From NCBI GenBank assembly GCA_007130865.1, contig SLRR01000190.1, forward strand, positions 1 through 64,000: 64,000 nucleotides of DNA. Direction: 5' to 3'. The notes under the pieces were generated by a model. The model did not search any database, was not told where the DNA came from, and was given only the letters and a program-made list of their open reading frames with translations. Position numbers and translations under genes: made by a program. This document shows positions 2,515 to 11,891 of the stretch, piece after piece. Position 1 is the first letter of the stretch. Every line of letters begins with the position of its first letter. This stretch comes from Spirochaeta sp. GTDB lineage: Bacteria > Spirochaetota > Spirochaetia > DSM-27196 > Alkalispirochaetaceae.

Positions 2515-3465
2515 GTGCAACGGATTCCCCGGATCCTGGCCGTCGTCTTTGGACTGCTGTTTATCGTGAGTCTCGTTTACTCGGTGCAGACGACGCTCTC
2601 GCTCTCCCGAACTGTTTCCTCCGCGGAAATGGACTCGGATTCCCGGGATCTGCACGTGGCGGTATTCATTCCGGAAGCCCCCGCTCAGTTTATCGATCGC
2701 GTGATTACCGGCGCCCGGGAAGCGGCGGCAGCACACGGTGTGGCGCTTACCGTACACGCGATCGACGCGGACGCGCTGGCGCTGCGCATGGCAAAGTATT
2801 CCGGGATCGACGGGGCAATTCTTTACCCGTCCATGGGGGAGGCCGAGACGCGGCGACGCCTGGACGAACTGCACCGCGCCGGTATTCCGGTGGTTCTGAT
2901 CGAACACGGCGTAGCGGACGAGTCACCCTGGACGTTCGTGGGAACCAATAACTTTGACGTGGGCCGACGGATCGGCGAACTCGCGTCTGGTGGTGACGAC
3001 CCCGCGCACCTGGCGGTGGTCTACAGCGAGAAATCGCCCGGCGTGATCGCCGAGAAAGAACTGGTGGAGCTGGGGATAAATACCGTTCTTGGGGCGCGGC
3101 TCGCGGCTCCGGTTATCCGGAAGTCCACCGGTCTCAACCCGCTGGACGCGGAAAACCTTACCTACCAGATACTGCGGACGATGCCCCACGTCAACACGAT
3201 CGCGTTCACCGATACGGCGGACACGCTCGCGGCGATCCAGGTGATCATCGACCTGAACCTCGTGGGTACCGTCCGCGTGGTCGGTTTCGGGATCACCGAG
3301 ACGATTCAGGATTACCTCGATCGCGGTATCCTGGTCGGTACGATCGTTGTCAATCCGGTGCGGATCGGGTCGGAAGCGGTGAAAGCCCTGAGCGGTCTGA
3401 TCCGGGAAGGGCACTCGCCGGGGTACATCGACACCGGCGTTGAGATCATACGGGGGCGGCCGTGA
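2515..3465 (+). CDS. Membrane-anchored periplasmic sugar-binding-type protein (probable sensor subunit)
   Basis: N-terminal uncleaved-looking TM (ILAVVFGLLFIVSLVYSV) then a LacI/PBP1-type domain (AVFIPEAPAQFIDRVITGAREAAAAHG; FVGTNNFDVGRRIGEL). Stop overlaps kinase start. Confidence 0.7.
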   Translation: MQRIPRILAVVFGLLFIVSLVYSVQTTLSLSRTVSSAEMDSDSRDLHVAVFIPEAPAQFIDRVITGAREAAAAHGVALTVHAIDADALALRMAKYSGIDGAILYPSMGEAETRRRLDELHRAGIPVVLIEHGVADESPWTFVGTNNFDVGRRIGELASGGDDPAHLAVVYSEKSPGVIAEKELVELGINTVLGARLAAPVIRKSTGLNPLDAENLTYQILRTMPHVNTIAFTDTADTLAAIQVIIDLNLVGTVRVVGFGITETIQDYLDRGILVGTIVVNPVRIGSEAVKALSGLIREGHSPGYIDTGVEIIRGRP

Positions 3466-4952
3466 CCCGGTTCCGGAACTCTCTGCGAACGCGGTTGCTG
3501 CTCTCCTCCGTGGTGGGACTCGCGTTCATCATCGTCTCCACCACGTACGTTCTCTTCGCGACGCTGCGGTTTCAGCAGGTAGTGAACGACCAGTTCCGGA
3601 TGGAGCGATACTTTCAGGACCTCCAGCGGGAGGTGGTCGCTATCCGGGAACCGCTGGTGGAGTACCTCTCAAGCCGATCCTCCGCGGCGCTGGCCAACCT
3701 GCTCGTGGAGGAGCAGATCCTTCGCAGTATGATTCCCGAGGAGCGTGCCGTCGCGGACGATCTCCTCACTCTTTCGAGTCGGGAGATCTTCTTTCTGCTG
3801 GAGTCGTACCTGGACATGATGCACGAGGCGATCGCCCTGAAGCGGGCTCGAGCGATCGAAGAATACACCGCGCTGTACGAGACGATGCACCAGCTCAATA
3901 TGCACATCACTGAGCAGATCGACCGGGTCAGCCTTTACGGATTGCGCCGGGAGCTCACCAATTACGAACAGCTCCTGGAAACGTCACGGCAGCTGCTATT
4001 CTGGAACCTCTTTGTTCTGGTTTCCGCGTTCATGACCGCGGTGTTTCTCATTTTTATCGCGATCAAACGTATAACCGACCCGATGCAGCGTCTTGCACAG
4101 ATGGCGGGCGAGCTCTCCTCGGGAAACTTTGACGTAGAGGATATACGCGTAAAGGCTGTTACCGAGGTGGGTACGGTGATCAGCGCGTTCAACACTATGA
4201 AGCACGATATCCGCCAGTACATCGCGGAGATCAACAAGCAGAAACAGATCGAACAGGGATACCTCGCGGAGAAAGTGCGGAACCTCAAGATGGAACAGTT
4301 GCTCAAGCGCATGGAGATGTACACCCTGCAGGCGCAGATGAACCCCCACTTCCTCTTCAACACGCTCAACACCGGTGTCCAGCTGGCGATCACCGAGGAG
4401 GCGGAACAGACCGCGGACTTCATGGAGAATCTTGCCAAGTTCTTCCGCCACAACATTCGCGTGCGGGACCTGGTGGTTCCTCTGCGCCACGAGATCGAGG
4501 GGCTCGAATCGTACCTCTATATTCTGCGCATTCGCTTTCCCCGTTCGCTGGAACTGACTCTGGAAGTTCCGGAGGAACTGCTCGACTCGTGCCGCGTACC
4601 TGCCCTGATCCTGCAGCCGCTGGTGGAGAACTCCGTGATTCATGCGTTCAAGGGGATCGACCGGAATGGAGCGATCGAGATCAGGGTTGGACGGGAAGAG
4701 GATGTGGTATTTCTCTCGGTGCGCGACAACGGCGTGGGGATTCCTGCGGCGGTAGCGGATCGACTGCTTCACCGCGATGCTCGCGACCCCGACCATACCT
4801 CCAAGGTTATGGGTTTGAAAAACGTGATACAGCGGCTGCATTTCTTCTTTCCAGCGCTGCCGGACGTGGTAGCGATCAATAGTGAGCCGAACGAAGGAAC
4901 GGAGGTGCGGATCCGACTCGATACGAGGGTAGAAGCGTGTATTCCATCCTGA
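3462..4952 (+). CDS. Sensor histidine kinase, YesM/LytS type
   Basis: Two TM segments, HAMP-like region, QAQMNPHFLFNTLN phosphoacceptor motif, HATPase N/G boxes. Confidence 0.9.
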   Translation: MTRFRNSLRTRLLLSSVVGLAFIIVSTTYVLFATLRFQQVVNDQFRMERYFQDLQREVVAIREPLVEYLSSRSSAALANLLVEEQILRSMIPEERAVADDLLTLSSREIFFLLESYLDMMHEAIALKRARAIEEYTALYETMHQLNMHITEQIDRVSLYGLRRELTNYEQLLETSRQLLFWNLFVLVSAFMTAVFLIFIAIKRITDPMQRLAQMAGELSSGNFDVEDIRVKAVTEVGTVISAFNTMKHDIRQYIAEINKQKQIEQGYLAEKVRNLKMEQLLKRMEMYTLQAQMNPHFLFNTLNTGVQLAITEEAEQTADFMENLAKFFRHNIRVRDLVVPLRHEIEGLESYLYILRIRFPRSLELTLEVPEELLDSCRVPALILQPLVENSVIHAFKGIDRNGAIEIRVGREEDVVFLSVRDNGVGIPAAVADRLLHRDARDPDHTSKVMGLKNVIQRLHFFFPALPDVVAINSEPNEGTEVRIRLDTRVEACIPS

Positions 4953-6433
4953 TCGTCGACGACGAAGAACCGGTTCTGGAGAGTTATACCTACATGATCC
5001 GGAACGGCGATCTCGATCTCGAGGTGTGCGGTGCCGCCCGTTCCGGCAGCGAGGCGATAACGCTCGCCCGCGAGTCCCGTCCCGATATCGTAGTGATGGA
5101 CATCGCGATGCCCGGCATGGACGGTCTGGACACGATTCGGGAGCTGCGGAAGATGTACCCGGATGCGCTCTACATCCTCTCCACCGCGTACGAACGCTTC
5201 GACCTCGCGCAACGGGCGATTCCACTGCGCGTCTTCGAATACCTGGTGAAACCGGTCTCGCGACGGCGGTTCCTGGAGACGATGATCCACGCCACGGAAG
5301 TCCTGGAGAAACGGCGGAAGGACGTCACTCCTGGTGAGGTGGGCCGGGATGAGGAAGATTTTTTACTCCTGCTCACGTGGAAAACGTTCGATCCGCAGGA
5401 ATGGAACCGATACCGTGAAATGCTGCGGTTTTCCTCCGACTTCGGCCGGGTCCTGGTGATCGCACTTGACTACGTGCCGGAATCGCAGTCGCGCGAAGAA
5501 GCGCGGGCGCGGATTACCGGCAAACTCGAGCGGCGATTCCGCATTTTTTTCACGGATCATATGGGGTATCTCCTGTTGTTCATCCCGGAGACGACCGACA
5601 CCGAGGAAGGACTCGACCGGTATGTACGAGAGAGCATTCGCCCTCTCGCGACGGAGAACCTTCGGTTCAGGGTCGGTCTTGGTGACAGGCGACAGTACAA
5701 CGAGCTATACCTCTCCTACGAGCACGCTCTGCAGGAGATTGCCCGCGTCGCCGGGGACCCGGAACAGGAGGAAGACCGGTTCTTCCTGCAGATGCGTTAC
5801 CTGGTTGCCCGGGCGCACGCCGATGGTGATCTCTGCGAACGGTGTCGCGAGCATTGTGAACGGGAGTTCGTACGGTTGCCATTTCCGGTTGCCCGGTCGC
5901 GCATGATCGTGCTCTTTACGCTCTTGCTGGAAGACCTGGCGGTCCGGTCCGGGCGGGAGCAGGCGGATCTCCTTCTCCGCCGTATCGGCGATCCCGCCCG
6001 CGCGATCACCGCGATCGAAAATCGCCGCGACTGGGACGCCTGGGCGGGTCGAGCGCTGCGCCTGTTGCTGGAGTACAGCACGAAGCTGTCCCTCGACAGG
6101 TATCCCGCGCCCCTGCGTTCCGCGATAGCGTACATCGACTCGGAGTTCCAGAGGGAGATCAACCTCAAGAGTCTCGCCGAGTACTGCAGCGTGTCGTCGG
6201 GATACCTTTCCCGATTATTCTCGGAGCACTTGAATACGACGTTCAACGACTATCTGAATAACACCAGGATAGAAGCGGCGGAACATTACCTGGTCGAGGG
6301 GAAGCTCTCGGTCAAGGAAATCGCCTACCGGACAGGATATAACGATCCCAACTACTTCAGCCGGATTTTCAAGAAATACAAGGGATTATCACCAACCTCC
6401 TATCTCTCGAGAAAGGGAGCCCATGCGGAATAG
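4937..6433 (+). CDS. Response regulator, YesN type (REC plus AraC HTH)
   Basis: SILIVDDEEPV and DIVVMDIAMPGMDGL receiver; C-terminal AraC HTH SVKEIAYRTGYNDPNYFSRIFKKYKGLSP. Confidence 0.92.
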   Translation: MYSILIVDDEEPVLESYTYMIRNGDLDLEVCGAARSGSEAITLARESRPDIVVMDIAMPGMDGLDTIRELRKMYPDALYILSTAYERFDLAQRAIPLRVFEYLVKPVSRRRFLETMIHATEVLEKRRKDVTPGEVGRDEEDFLLLLTWKTFDPQEWNRYREMLRFSSDFGRVLVIALDYVPESQSREEARARITGKLERRFRIFFTDHMGYLLLFIPETTDTEEGLDRYVRESIRPLATENLRFRVGLGDRRQYNELYLSYEHALQEIARVAGDPEQEEDRFFLQMRYLVARAHADGDLCERCREHCEREFVRLPFPVARSRMIVLFTLLLEDLAVRSGREQADLLLRRIGDPARAITAIENRRDWDAWAGRALRLLLEYSTKLSLDRYPAPLRSAIAYIDSEFQREINLKSLAEYCSVSSGYLSRLFSEHLNTTFNDYLNNTRIEAAEHYLVEGKLSVKEIAYRTGYNDPNYFSRIFKKYKGLSPTSYLSRKGAHAE

Positions 6434-7499
6434 ACGCAAAACGATGCTTGTACTCGGCCTGATCCTGGCAGGGGGTATCGCTACGATGATCGTTCTGATG
6501 GTCGCTAGCGGAAGATTGGCCGGCGGCGAGCCCGCGGATCGCGAAGAAGGGATCACGATCGGGTTTTCCGTGGCCACGGACACGTTCATCATCGAGCGCT
6601 GGAACAAGGATATCAAGATATTCACCAGCGCCGCCGGAGAACTCGGCGCGGATGTGATCCTCCAGATGTCCGCCGGTGGTACCCAGGCGCAGATCGACCA
6701 GATCCGTTTCCTCCTGGACCAGGATATCGACGTGCTGGTGATCCTGCCGCACGATACGGATATGCTTGCCGGCGTCGTCCGGATGGCCAACGAGAAACGG
6801 GTGCCGGTGATCAGCTACGACCGGTTGATCCAGGGAGTCCCGGTAACCGCGTACATCTCCTTTGACAACGAGGAAGTGGGAAGACTTTTTGGGCGGGCCC
6901 TCACGGCGGAAGTGCCTGTAGGAAACTACCTGATCGTTAACGGATCCGTGCGGGATGACAACAGTTACCGCGTCAACAGCGGGTTGTGGGAGGTCCTCGG
7001 TCCCTACGTCAATTCCGGACAGATCTCAATCGTGGACGAGATCTGGCTCGAGGCGTGGAGTTCCGATGAGGCCGCGGAACGGATTCGCGAGGTACTGGAG
7101 CGCACCACCGATATCGACGCGATATCTGCCGGCAACGACCAGATCGCCAACGCGGCGATCCAGCTTCTCGCGGAGCGACGCATGGCCGGTGAAGTTGCCG
7201 TGGTGGGACAGGATGCGGATCTGCTCTCCAGCCAACGAGTTGTGGAAGGGCTGCAGCTCATGACCGTGTACAAACCGATCCAGAGGCTGGCGACCCGTGC
7301 TGCCGAAGTGGCGGTAGGTATCGCCCGGGACAAGGTCCCCGCGCCGGATCGGTTTGAGGACAACAGCAGCGATACGCCGATACCGTTCTATATGGAGGCG
7401 CCTCGAGCGGTGTTCTCCTGGAATATGGACGAGACGATCATCCGCGACGGATTTCACAGCGCCGACGATGTGTACCGGACGACATCTGGACAAAATTGA
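6423..7499 (+). CDS. Membrane-anchored XylF-like sugar-binding protein
   Basis: N-terminal TM (TMLVLGLILAGGIATMIVLMVA), XylF-type TIGFSVATDTFIIERWNKD, VPVISYDRLI, AGNDQIANAAIQ, VGQDAD. Confidence 0.8.
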   Translation: MRNRRKTMLVLGLILAGGIATMIVLMVASGRLAGGEPADREEGITIGFSVATDTFIIERWNKDIKIFTSAAGELGADVILQMSAGGTQAQIDQIRFLLDQDIDVLVILPHDTDMLAGVVRMANEKRVPVISYDRLIQGVPVTAYISFDNEEVGRLFGRALTAEVPVGNYLIVNGSVRDDNSYRVNSGLWEVLGPYVNSGQISIVDEIWLEAWSSDEAAERIREVLERTTDIDAISAGNDQIANAAIQLLAERRMAGEVAVVGQDADLLSSQRVVEGLQLMTVYKPIQRLATRAAEVAVGIARDKVPAPDRFEDNSSDTPIPFYMEAPRAVFSWNMDETIIRDGFHSADDVYRTTSGQN

Positions 7500-7635
7500 T
7501 GTCATCTATGTGCTGATTCGACAGCCGGAACGGGAAGGCTGTTCAACTCCGTGCGATTCATTGCACCATTTTCCTGTAGCGTCCGCGTACGGGCCGGGTG
7601 ACAATCTGATACATCACACACAAAGGAGTGTTTTT

Positions 7636-8739
7636 ATGAGACGAATTGTTGTATTGTCACTCGTTCTTCTACTCGCGGCGGGCATGGTATTTGCCGGCGG
7701 CCGGGGAGAAGCAGCCGGACTGGATATCGGTCTCGCGATGCCTGAGACGCACGTGGAACGCTGGCAGATGGACGGCGCTGCCCTTCTCGAAGGTGCGCAG
7801 CAAGCCGGTTACCGCGCGGAAGTCACCTACGGCGATGCCGACCAGGGACGCCAGAACCAGCAGATCCAGGACTTCATCACCAAGGGCGTCAAGCTGCTGA
7901 TTATTGGAAACATCAACGAGGGCGTTAACTCCGTAGTCCGGGAAGCGGCCGAAGAGGGGATCATCGTGATCGCCTACGACCGGCTTATTACCGGATCCGA
8001 CGCGTACGATTACTACATCACGTTTGACAACTTCCAGGTCGGTGTTTTTCAGGGACGCGCGATTGAAGAAGCACTTGATCTTCCCAACGTTTCCGCCTCT
8101 GATCCGAAGGTCATAACGCTGTTCGCGGGATCGCCCACGGACAACAACGCGAACTTTTTCTTTGATGGTGCGATGTCGGTGTTGCGACCCTACGTCGAGA
8201 GCGGAGCTCTTGAGATCGTCGGTCCCGCGCCGCTGCGCTCCTCGGATGCCGCATTCACCCGGATCGCCACTGAAAACTGGCGCGCCGACGTGGCCAAAGC
8301 GCGCATGGAGAACCTCCTGAGCGCCGACGCGCGCGACGTAGTGCTCGACGCTGTACTCGCTCCGAACGATACGCTCGCCCGGGCGATCATCGAAGCGCTC
8401 GCGGCGGACGCCAAGTACGACACCACCGAGAAGCTGCCCGTAGTTACCGGACAGGACGGTGAGATCGCGTCTGTTCAGGCTATCCGTGACGGTCGGCAGT
8501 ACATGACGGTGTTCAAGGATACCCGCAACCTGGCGGCGGCGGCGATCCAGCTCGCGGACGCGCTGCTTTCCGGGCAGGATACCCCTGCGATCGACGGTGC
8601 ACGGCTCGATACCGAGACATACGACACCGGTCTCAAGGTAGTGAACTCCTACCTCCTGGAACCGATCAACGTTACTGTGGACAACTATCGCGAGGTGATG
8701 ATCGACAGCGGATACTACTCCGCGTCCGATATTGACTGA
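7636..8739 (+). CDS. ChvE-type multiple-monosaccharide ABC transporter substrate-binding protein
   Basis: Signal peptide MRRIVVLSLVLLLAAGMVFAGG; IGLAMPETHVERWQMDG; AGSPTDNNANFFFDGAMSVLRPY. Start refined from 7354 to ATG 7636 (AGGAG upstream). Confidence 0.85.
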   Translation: MRRIVVLSLVLLLAAGMVFAGGRGEAAGLDIGLAMPETHVERWQMDGAALLEGAQQAGYRAEVTYGDADQGRQNQQIQDFITKGVKLLIIGNINEGVNSVVREAAEEGIIVIAYDRLITGSDAYDYYITFDNFQVGVFQGRAIEEALDLPNVSASDPKVITLFAGSPTDNNANFFFDGAMSVLRPYVESGALEIVGPAPLRSSDAAFTRIATENWRADVAKARMENLLSADARDVVLDAVLAPNDTLARAIIEALAADAKYDTTEKLPVVTGQDGEIASVQAIRDGRQYMTVFKDTRNLAAAAIQLADALLSGQDTPAIDGARLDTETYDTGLKVVNSYLLEPINVTVDNYREVMIDSGYYSASDID

Positions 8740-8769
8740 CGGAACGTTTGACGTCACGATTTTTACGAT

Positions 8770-8801
8770 ATACCCCGGTCGGCCGGACGAGGCCGGGGTA
8801 T
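8770..8801 (+). promoter_or_regulatory. Intercistronic stem-loop between binding-protein and ATPase genes
   Basis: ATACCCCGG (8770-8778) pairs with CCGGGGTAT (8793-8801), 14-nt loop; no U-tract. Confidence 0.7.
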
Positions 8802-8823
8802 TGGTTCTACGAGGACGGACGAT

Positions 8824-10344
8824 GTGAGCGATTATATCCTGGAAGTCAGAAACGTAACCAAGGATTTTCCCGGTGTGCGAGCGCTGGACGATGTCAGTTT
8901 CCGGGTAAAAAAGGGCGAGATCCACGGAATCTGTGGTGAGAACGGTGCGGGTAAGTCCACCCTGATGAACGTAGTCAGCGGCGTGCTTCCGGTAGGCACC
9001 TACGAGGGAGAGGTTCTGATACATGGTCAGGAAGTCCACTTCCGCAGCGTGCGGGACAGTGAGAAAGTGGGCCTCACGATAATGCATCAGGAGCTGGCAC
9101 TCAGCCCCTACCTTTCGATCTACGAGAACCTCTTTCTCGGCCACGCGGGGACCCGGTTCGGTATCATCAACTGGGACGATCTGCTGGCGCGATCGCGACC
9201 GTACCTGGGGCGGGTAGGCTTGAAGGACCGTCCCGAGACGGTGGTGAGCAAGCTCGGCGTCGGCAAGCAGCAGCTCGTGGAAATCGCGCGGGCGCTTTCC
9301 AAGAACACGGAGATTCTTATCCTGGACGAGCCCACGGCATCGCTCAACGACGAGGAGAGCGAGAAACTTCTGGAGCTGATCATGGAGCTTCGCAAGGAAG
9401 GGCTCACGTGCGTACTGATTTCCCACAAACTGAATGAAGTGCTGAAAGTAGCCGACTCGATCACGGTCTTGCGCGACGGCCGTTCGATTCAGACCTGGGA
9501 TACCCACACCGACGAGGTCACGCGGGCGATGCTTATCAAAGGCATGGTCGGCCGGGACATGACGCATCTCTATCCCGAGAAGACGCCGAAGATCGGCGAC
9601 ACGGTGTTCGAGGTGAAAAACTGGACCGTGTACCACCCGGAATACCACGATATGAAGGTGGTGGACAACGCGTCGTTCCAACTTCGGAAGGGAGAGATTC
9701 TCGGATTCTGCGGTCCCATGGGTGCGGGCCGGACGGAACTTATGATGAGCCTCTTCGGACGATCCTACGGCTCCAGGTCGGAAGGCGAAGTCTACCATCA
9801 TGGAGAGAAGGTGGAATTCGCCTCACCCCGGGACGCGATCCGCAAGGGGATCGGGTACGTCTCGGAAGACCGTAAGAGCCTGGGTCTCATCCTGATCCAG
9901 GACGTGAAGACCAACATCGCCAATTCCAGCCTGGACAAGCTCTCGCGATGGGGCGTGATGGACTCCTTCAAAGAGGTAGACGCCGCGGAACGTTACCGGA
10001 AGTCGCTCAATATCAAAACCCCCTCGATCACGCAGATGGTGCGGAACCTGAGCGGCGGGAACCAGCAGAAAGTAGTGCTGGCGCGGTGCCTCCTGGCGGA
10101 ACCGGATATCTTTATCGTCGATGAACCGACCCGCGGTATCGACGTGGGAGCCAAGTACGAGATCTACACGATTCTGAACGAGCTGGCCGCGGCGGGTAAG
10201 AGTATCATCATGGTTACCTCGGAAATGCCCGAGGCGATAGGTATGGCGGATCGGATCTACGTTATGAACGAGGGAGAGATAAAAGGCTGCCTCGATCGTG
10301 ACGAAGCAACCCAGGAAAAAATCATGCACATGGCATTGGAATGA
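8824..10344 (+). CDS. Sugar ABC transporter ATP-binding protein (GguA/XylG type, two ABC domains)
   Basis: Two ABC domains: GENGAGKST, LILDEPTASL, LSGGNQQKVVLAR, VDEPTRGIDVGAK. Confidence 0.9.
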   Translation: MSDYILEVRNVTKDFPGVRALDDVSFRVKKGEIHGICGENGAGKSTLMNVVSGVLPVGTYEGEVLIHGQEVHFRSVRDSEKVGLTIMHQELALSPYLSIYENLFLGHAGTRFGIINWDDLLARSRPYLGRVGLKDRPETVVSKLGVGKQQLVEIARALSKNTEILILDEPTASLNDEESEKLLELIMELRKEGLTCVLISHKLNEVLKVADSITVLRDGRSIQTWDTHTDEVTRAMLIKGMVGRDMTHLYPEKTPKIGDTVFEVKNWTVYHPEYHDMKVVDNASFQLRKGEILGFCGPMGAGRTELMMSLFGRSYGSRSEGEVYHHGEKVEFASPRDAIRKGIGYVSEDRKSLGLILIQDVKTNIANSSLDKLSRWGVMDSFKEVDAAERYRKSLNIKTPSITQMVRNLSGGNQQKVVLARCLLAEPDIFIVDEPTRGIDVGAKYEIYTILNELAAAGKSIIMVTSEMPEAIGMADRIYVMNEGEIKGCLDRDEATQEKIMHMALE

Positions 10345-10360
10345 TAACCCGGAGAAAGCG

Positions 10361-11557
10361 ATGACGGATATCAAGCATAAATCCCAGACAATACCTCTTC
10401 ACCAGCTGATCAAGAACAACATCCGAAACTACTCGATGTTCATCATGCTGGTACTGATCTTCGCGGTGTTCTCGTTCTTCACAGGGGGGATTAACTTCTC
10501 TCCCCGGAACGTGTCGAACATCTTCATGCAGAACAGCTACATCCTGATCCTGGCGGCGGGGATGGTGCTGGTGATCATCGTGGGGAATATCGACCTCTCC
10601 GTGGGGTCTCTCGTGGCCTTTACCGGGGCTATCGCCGCGATGATCTACAATACGGGACTCAACCTGCCGATTACGGTGGTTCTGACGATGCTTGTCGGTG
10701 GGGTGATAGGGATCTGGCAGGGGTTCTGGATCGCCTTTGTGGGAATACCGGCGTTTATCGTGACCCTGGCGGGCCTCCTGATGTTCCGGGGACTCACCTA
10801 CGTGATCACCAATGTTACACCGATATCGCTCCGGGACGAGGGATTCCGACAGATCACTTCCGGATTCATCTCGGTGGACGGGTTGCATATCGGTGGTCAG
10901 CACTACTTAGCCTGGCTCGTAGGTGCTATCATAGCGGTGCTCGTAGTGGTCGCCGCGGTCAGGGCGCGTCAGAACAAGATCAAGAAGGGATTCGAGATCC
11001 TTCCCATGTCCGCGTTTATCCTGAAGAACGCGTTCATCATAGGCATGATCGCGCTTCTGTCGTGGAAGTTCGCCGGGTTCCGCGGCGTACCGATCATCGT
11101 CGTGGTCCTGTCGGTTGTAGTGGGCATCCTGACGTTTGTCGCCAACCGGACCGTTATAGGCCGCTACATCTACGCCGTTGGTGGAAACGCCCGGTCGGCA
11201 AAGCTCTCCGGTATAAACGCGGAGATGGTCGTGTTTGTCGTACACGTCATGATGGGTGCGCTGTCGGGCCTTGCGGGCCTCGTCTTCGCCGGATACATGA
11301 ACTCCGCGCTTCCCCAGGCGGGGCAGATGTTTGAGCTCGACGCGATCGCGGCGTGTTTTATCGGAGGTGCATCCGCATCGGGCGGAATCGGTACGATCAT
11401 CGGAGCGATCGTGGGCGGGCTCGTCATGGGGGTGATAAACAACGGCATGTCCCTGATGAATATCGGCGCGGACTGGCAGTACGTGGTGAAGGCGCTTGTG
11501 GCGCTCTTTGCGGTGTTCTACGATATCTACACGCGACGCAAGGCCGGCCTGGCGTAA
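10361..11557 (+). CDS. Sugar ABC transporter permease (GguB/XylH type)
   Basis: Multiple TM; GNIDLSVGSLVAFTGA, GGNARSAKLSGIN motifs. Start refined from 10298 to ATG 10361. Confidence 0.9.
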   Translation: MTDIKHKSQTIPLHQLIKNNIRNYSMFIMLVLIFAVFSFFTGGINFSPRNVSNIFMQNSYILILAAGMVLVIIVGNIDLSVGSLVAFTGAIAAMIYNTGLNLPITVVLTMLVGGVIGIWQGFWIAFVGIPAFIVTLAGLLMFRGLTYVITNVTPISLRDEGFRQITSGFISVDGLHIGGQHYLAWLVGAIIAVLVVVAAVRARQNKIKKGFEILPMSAFILKNAFIIGMIALLSWKFAGFRGVPIIVVVLSVVVGILTFVANRTVIGRYIYAVGGNARSAKLSGINAEMVVFVVHVMMGALSGLAGLVFAGYMNSALPQAGQMFELDAIAACFIGGASASGGIGTIIGAIVGGLVMGVINNGMSLMNIGADWQYVVKALVALFAVFYDIYTRRKAGLA

Positions 11558-11570
11558 GGTGAAATACCGG

Positions 11571-11859
11571 TGATTCGGCAATACAGATCTTAACGTTTCT
11601 GAAATCTGCTTTGGTACGATGCGCTACGCGTCCAAAACCGGTGAGCACGACGACCAGAGCACCGCCGCTACGCGGGCGCTGGAAGAAGCGGTCGACTCCG
11701 GGGTCAACTTCATCCACTCCAGCTACGAGTACGGGACGCGGTGGCGTTCCGGGAGCGGATCGAGGAAGCGCTGCGGGAACTGAAGGTGGACCGTATCGCG
11801 GTCGTACAGCACCCGCACCGGGGTCTTGACGTACTGAGTAAACGACGTACTGAGTAATC
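11571..11859 (+). pseudogene. Degraded aldo/keto reductase remnant
   Basis: Frames read DLNVSEICFGTMRY ... ALEEAVDSGVNFIHSSYEYGTRW, then a frame change to AFRERIEEALRELKVDRIAVVQHPHRG; stop shortly after. N-terminal AKR motifs with most of the gene absent. Confidence 0.75.
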
Positions 11860-11891
11860 GAAAACCCGAGGAGTGGAGGCAGGAGGTCGCG

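Follow-up and report, generated by a model that had tools for sequence, protein, structure and literature searches.

A conserved Spirochaetia gene cassette encoding two binding proteins, a histidine kinase and a response regulator

Organization of the locus

The window, the whole 64,000-nucleotide stretch of DNA that was analyzed, comes from a genome that belongs to the genus Alkalispirochaeta, because a locus orthologous to that of the window sits in A. alkalica DSM 8900 (SBP1 58% identical). The locus comprises four sensor genes–SBP1, histidine kinase, response regulator, and XylF-like binding protein–followed by a gap and three transporter genes. The features are given below by window coordinates, with the supporting evidence in parentheses.

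2515–3465, forward: SBP1, a binding protein (PF13407, Peripla_BP_4; PDB profile, model, Foldseek, pocket table)
3462–4952, forward: LytS/YesM-type histidine kinase (Pfam PF06580, HAMP, HATPase; two transmembrane segments)
3570–3995, forward: kinase ectodomain, residues 37–178 (model pLDDT 87; best PDB match 5xsj_L)
4937–6433, forward: YesN-type response regulator (receiver PF00072 and AraC helix-turn-helix PF12833)
6423–7499, forward: XylF-like binding protein of the sensor-linked clade (PDB matches, pocket, tree, N-termini)
6441–6512, forward: hydrophobic N-terminal segment of the XylF-like protein (N-terminus comparison)
6507–6509, forward: Ser29 codon AGC, at the position of the relatives' lipid-attachment Cys (N-terminus comparison)
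7500–7635, forward: 136-nt gap separating the sensor cassette from the transporter operon, with a candidate regulator site (alignment of six genus members, spacing test)
7636–8739, forward: ChvE-type transport binding protein (NCBIfam ChvE best model, below cut-off; ordinary signal peptide)
8824–10344, forward: GguA-type ABC ATPase (NCBIfam GguA best model, 771 bits against a cut-off of 810)
10361–11557, forward: GguB-type ABC permease (NCBIfam GguB, above cut-off)

The SBP1 and kinase genes share 4 nt, the kinase and regulator genes 16 nt, and the regulator and XylF-like genes 11 nt; the overlapping cassette described in the original prediction is borne out by the open reading frame coordinates and Pfam assignments, and all of the coordinates given there are correct. 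A separate secreted ChvE-type transport protein was said to follow the cassette and does so, with a cleavable-looking, ordinary signal ending in FAGG, and the GguA- and GguB-type genes come after it in a row; each of the three has the corresponding model as its best match, with only GguB above the curated cut-off. The case posed against the prediction, that one of the proteins flanking the kinase and regulator genes has a cleaved signal and is an ordinary transporter subunit, describes ChvE and fits neither flanking protein clearly.

Within the gap, GTGC occurs at 7510–7513 and at 7551–7554, and a GTGC or GTCC pair with a 40–41 nt step is found in the gap of five of the six genus members, both halves being changed in L034 and L035. 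This pair is a candidate regulator site only, because the aligned gap sequences are homologous. A scan of the window's own genome for the candidate site gave one further match against one control match, and therefore no regulon is proposed.

Several other features lie near the locus or elsewhere in the genome. A Gfo/Idh/MocA dehydrogenase gene (1503–2495) ends 19 nt 5' of SBP1, and the NCBIfam model that fits it best, D-xylose 1-dehydrogenase Gfo6, scores 107 bits, far under the cut-off of 350; it was dropped as a part of the cassette because the genus members do not have it at their loci. A direct repeat of ~31 nt (gtgctgtacgaaccgctccggaggacgtaga) at 10–41 and 1449–1480 brackets an AAA_14/DUF4143 ATPase gene (138–1409), which, because of the repeat on both sides, looks as if it had been inserted or duplicated beside the start of the Gfo/Idh gene; directly 5' of the ATPase gene, at 60–135, a short unit (gcgaaatggtagcgtaa) occurs in three imperfect copies. 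An apparent broken aldo/keto reductase remnant, judged by eye, is found 3' of the permease gene (11600–11870). On another contig of the same genome (C89, L036:144–4615), genes for an anchored binding protein and for an ABC transporter come directly after another YesM-type kinase gene, and this is probably a separate three-component sensor.

Conservation of the cassette in Spirochaetia

Gene order was surveyed within the phylum of the spirochaetes, using an SBP1 profile search of 393 genomes and a kinase profile search that yielded 76 loci, spread over 64 genomes from 31 genera. The seven-gene order from SBP1 through the permease recurs in five further members of the genus, and the SBP1 profile matches led to about 18 further Spirochaetia loci that have SBP1, kinase and, with few exceptions, regulator and XylF in this order. 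XylF is located downstream of the kinase and on the same strand in 65 of the 76 kinase loci (59 genomes), and the spacing between the two is a single regulator gene in 63 of these; in the other two, XylF directly follows the kinase with no regulator (L085) or is found after the transporter (L077). Further kinase loci were missed by the strict SBP1 search, and all 20 that were opened have the order SBP1, kinase, regulator, XylF. Because it is kept class-wide, the arrangement is far beyond chance, and the cassette is real and widespread in Spirochaetia.

The L085 locus (2946–6614) consists of SBP1, kinase, and XylF with no regulator and no transporter genes nearby, and its kinase may use a regulator encoded elsewhere. 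One genome of the same genus as the window (G005) has no kinase ortholog, no close GguA, and no match to XylF or ChvE; it seems to lack the sensor and the transporter together.

The gene order bears on whether XylF is part of the sensor. SBP1 could signal alone, as in an ordinary XylFII-LytS-YesN-type system, with the XylF-like protein acting in transport as an additional binding protein that supplies GguAB. XylF-family proteins do transport elsewhere, the clostridial xylFII-lytS-yesN genes adjoin xylFGH, an ABC transporter follows the cassette in most loci, and ABC transporter genes come next to the sampled XylF homologues that lie away from kinases. However, the cassette, including XylF, persists at six loci (L084, L085, L157, L158, L163, and L172) where the 2.9–8.4 kb downstream yielded no transporter gene. 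The transporter in the window already has ChvE, and ChvE-GguA loci exist without XylF (G003 and G007). A sensor of four parts that includes XylF is preferred here, and we consider signaling by SBP1 alone to be unlikely; three further lines of evidence against it, from phylogeny, pockets, and co-divergence, are given below.

The binding proteins and the kinase ectodomain

The XylF-like protein matches solved XylF structures at 6e-73 (4ywh) and 6e-68 (E. coli 3m9w), and scores 259 bits with TIGR02634 (XylF D-xylose transport binding protein), under the cut-off of 389.55. In a maximum-likelihood tree a 100/99 branch separates 51 cassette-linked XylFs from 16 transport XylFs and E. coli XylF, and the window protein falls opposite the transporter-linked XylFs and not among them; this separate clade speaks against XylF as a second transport protein. 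The nine xylose contacts of E. coli XylF (R16, D90, R91, D135, N137, W169, N196, D222, and K242 in E. coli numbering) are all present in the window copy, and each is present in 50 or 51 of the 51 cassette XylFs. Just two alignment columns distinguish sensor-linked from transport XylFs, and because of this no docking face on XylF is proposed; sensor XylFs thus have no clear class-specific surface residues, which favors the transport role.

Both flanking proteins had been described as membrane-anchored, and this stands for SBP1, which has an N-terminal transmembrane segment, and is less certain for the XylF-like protein of the window. Sensor-linked XylFs are predicted to be lipoproteins in all readable relatives, each of which has, by eye, a lipobox-like Cys (L098 is masked at this site); the window copy alone has Ser29. 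Anchoring of the window copy is less certain because Ser29 replaces the lipid Cys, and its 24-residue uncharged segment could be either a transmembrane anchor or a cleaved signal.

SBP1 has a single N-terminal hydrophobic segment (residues 7–24; 2533–2586) and no lipobox Cys. Its closest PDB profile matches are GanP (3e-21) and XylFII (1e-20), and GanP is the best Foldseek match to its model (pLDDT 90.5). The position of XylFII D103, the residue mutated in PDB entry 5xsd, is E130 in the window SBP1 and E, N, or G in the SBP1s generally, with Asp in 1 of 53; the XylFII pocket Arg is present in 1 and the Gln in 2 of these 53. All 24 near relatives have Gly or Ser in place of the C-lobe Asp, which 12 of the 29 distant relatives retain. 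The near-clade pocket is an altered yet conserved set (E/N, His, Leu, Asp, Gly). SBP1 is a XylFII/GanP-like, membrane-anchored protein that has lost the classical sugar site, and it thus has no sugar pocket of the sort required for sensing on its own. It may bind a second, non-classical ligand, since the altered pocket is conserved among near relatives.

A related proposal is that SBP1 and XylF both bind ligands, with one kinase integrating two signals, either two sugars or one sugar together with some other compound. The cassette constantly carries both proteins, and the altered but conserved near-clade pocket of SBP1 could mean a different ligand, but every classical SBP1 sugar contact is either gone or unstable, and near and distant relatives do not share one set of altered residues; we regard integration of two ligands as quite improbable. 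The form given in the original prediction, with two sugars or two affinities, is not upheld, as SBP1 has lost the canonical residues, including the XylFII D103 equivalent, and XylF has kept all of its own.

A PDB sequence search with the kinase ectodomain found LytS chains only at E 1.5–3.1, which is not significant, and therefore fold comparison was used. The ectodomain model is all-helical, and its best Foldseek match among 350,542 PDB chains is LytSN of the XylFII-LytSN complex (5xsj_L; prob 1.00, TM 0.84 by target, rmsd 2.4, E 5e-3), with the D103A XylFII-LytSN complex third and other helical sensor domains close behind; the match is not unique to the LytSN family, as other four-helix sensor domains score nearly as well. 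Across 50 kinase ectodomains R128 is invariant and Y68 nearly so.

Co-divergence was compared at 33 loci, controlling for kinase core, regulator, and ATPase divergence. Among these mutually related loci, partial co-divergence with the kinase ectodomain is 0.48 for XylF, 0.42 for SBP1, and -0.005 for ChvE, and that between SBP1 and XylF is 0.64; co-divergence with the ATPase (controlling for kinase core and regulator) is 0.78 for ChvE and 0.24 for XylF. XylF divergence therefore tracks SBP1 and the kinase and not the ATPase, contrary to a transport role. Because the loci are related to one another, these values are supportive and not proof, and gene linkage alone may account for part of them. 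Gene order, the transporter-less loci, XylF phylogeny, and co-divergence together support the assignment of both binding proteins to the kinase module and not to the transporter, as originally predicted.

XylF could also be linked to the kinase only because the kinase controls it, the protein itself serving another receptor (e.g. in chemotaxis) or a transporter encoded elsewhere. It lies within the regulator's own operon and may be made in step with it, but both its class-wide retention beside the kinase and its partial co-divergence with the kinase ectodomain would be left unexplained, and we think this very unlikely.

A possible four-part sensor and its relation to known systems

We give roughly even chances to the preferred reading, a sugar sensor with four parts: the sugar would be reported by XylF, SBP1 would stay on the kinase as a fixed co-receptor or adaptor, and ChvE-GguAB would be driven by the regulator. 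The membrane-anchored, XylFII/GanP-type SBP1 would be held beside the LytSN-like kinase ectodomain, as XylFII is on LytS, and without classical sugar contacts it would most likely act as the fixed co-receptor or adaptor. The XylF-like protein, apparently lipid-anchored in nearly all relatives, would bind xylose or a close relative of it, and the sugar-loaded form would dock on the SBP1-kinase complex. The kinase would then phosphorylate the YesN-type regulator, the sign of the signal being presumed, and the regulator would switch on ChvE-GguA-GguB from a putative promoter in the 136-nt gap.

Two binding proteins per kinase are supported, and the pocket comparisons of both show that SBP1, in the sensing position, has lost the classical sugar site and that XylF has kept it. 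More tentatively, and with some doubt, SBP1 may be a pseudo-binding protein with no ligand, a relative of XylFII that has become a permanent subunit of the kinase and senses sugar-loaded XylF, the signal passing from binding protein to binding protein to kinase. Neighborhood can mislead, as Pseudomonas aeruginosa AgtS and AruS make no contact with adjacent binding proteins (PMC11113362). If the second binding protein and the loss of the SBP1 sugar site are as proposed, binding proteins can turn into relay subunits, and the cassette makes the division of labor between binding and relay directly testable; XylF genes beside such spirochaete kinases should then not be annotated as transport genes.

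To our knowledge, characterized sugar sensors of the XylFII-LytS-YesN kind have one sensing binding protein per kinase, and we found no report in the literature of a two-binding-protein or four-component sugar kinase, or of a four-gene sensor in Spirochaeta or Treponema. The CuaD-CuaS-CuaR locus of Ruminiclostridium cellulolyticum similarly has two binding proteins, one sensing and one for transport, and only CuaD binds the kinase, CuaA does not (PMC10384115); the spirochaete locus differs in having three binding proteins, of which the sensor cassette encodes two. QseG-QseE is alike in that a lipoprotein acts on the kinase periplasmic domain, but QseG is not described in the cited work as sugar-binding and no second binding protein is present (PMC6075780, PMC12691602). 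The genes at 7636–11557 best match the models of the ChvE-GguA-GguB multiple-monosaccharide transporter, but here the transporter sits behind a sensor cassette, and ChvE and GguA are under the curated cut-offs. Among proteins of solved structure, Geobacillus stearothermophilus GanP (6gq0, 6gt9, 6guq) is nearest to SBP1 in both sequence and fold, and AraP (6sw4) of the same species also matches, but GanP has sugar contacts that SBP1 is without.

The XylFII-LytS-YesN system of Clostridium beijerinckii (PDB 5xsj, 5xsd, 5xss) shares with the cassette an anchored type-I binding protein encoded beside the kinase, a LytS kinase with a matching helical ectodomain fold, a YesN-type regulator, and a neighboring sugar ABC transporter. 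In contrast, the spirochaete SBP1 is without the XylFII pocket residues, including D103, and the cassette fixes a second binding protein, a XylF with an intact pocket and a putative role in signaling. Because the sensing pocket of XylFII was looked for in SBP1 and its residues were not found, the cassette is a variant of the XylFII-LytS-YesN kind and not a plain member of it.
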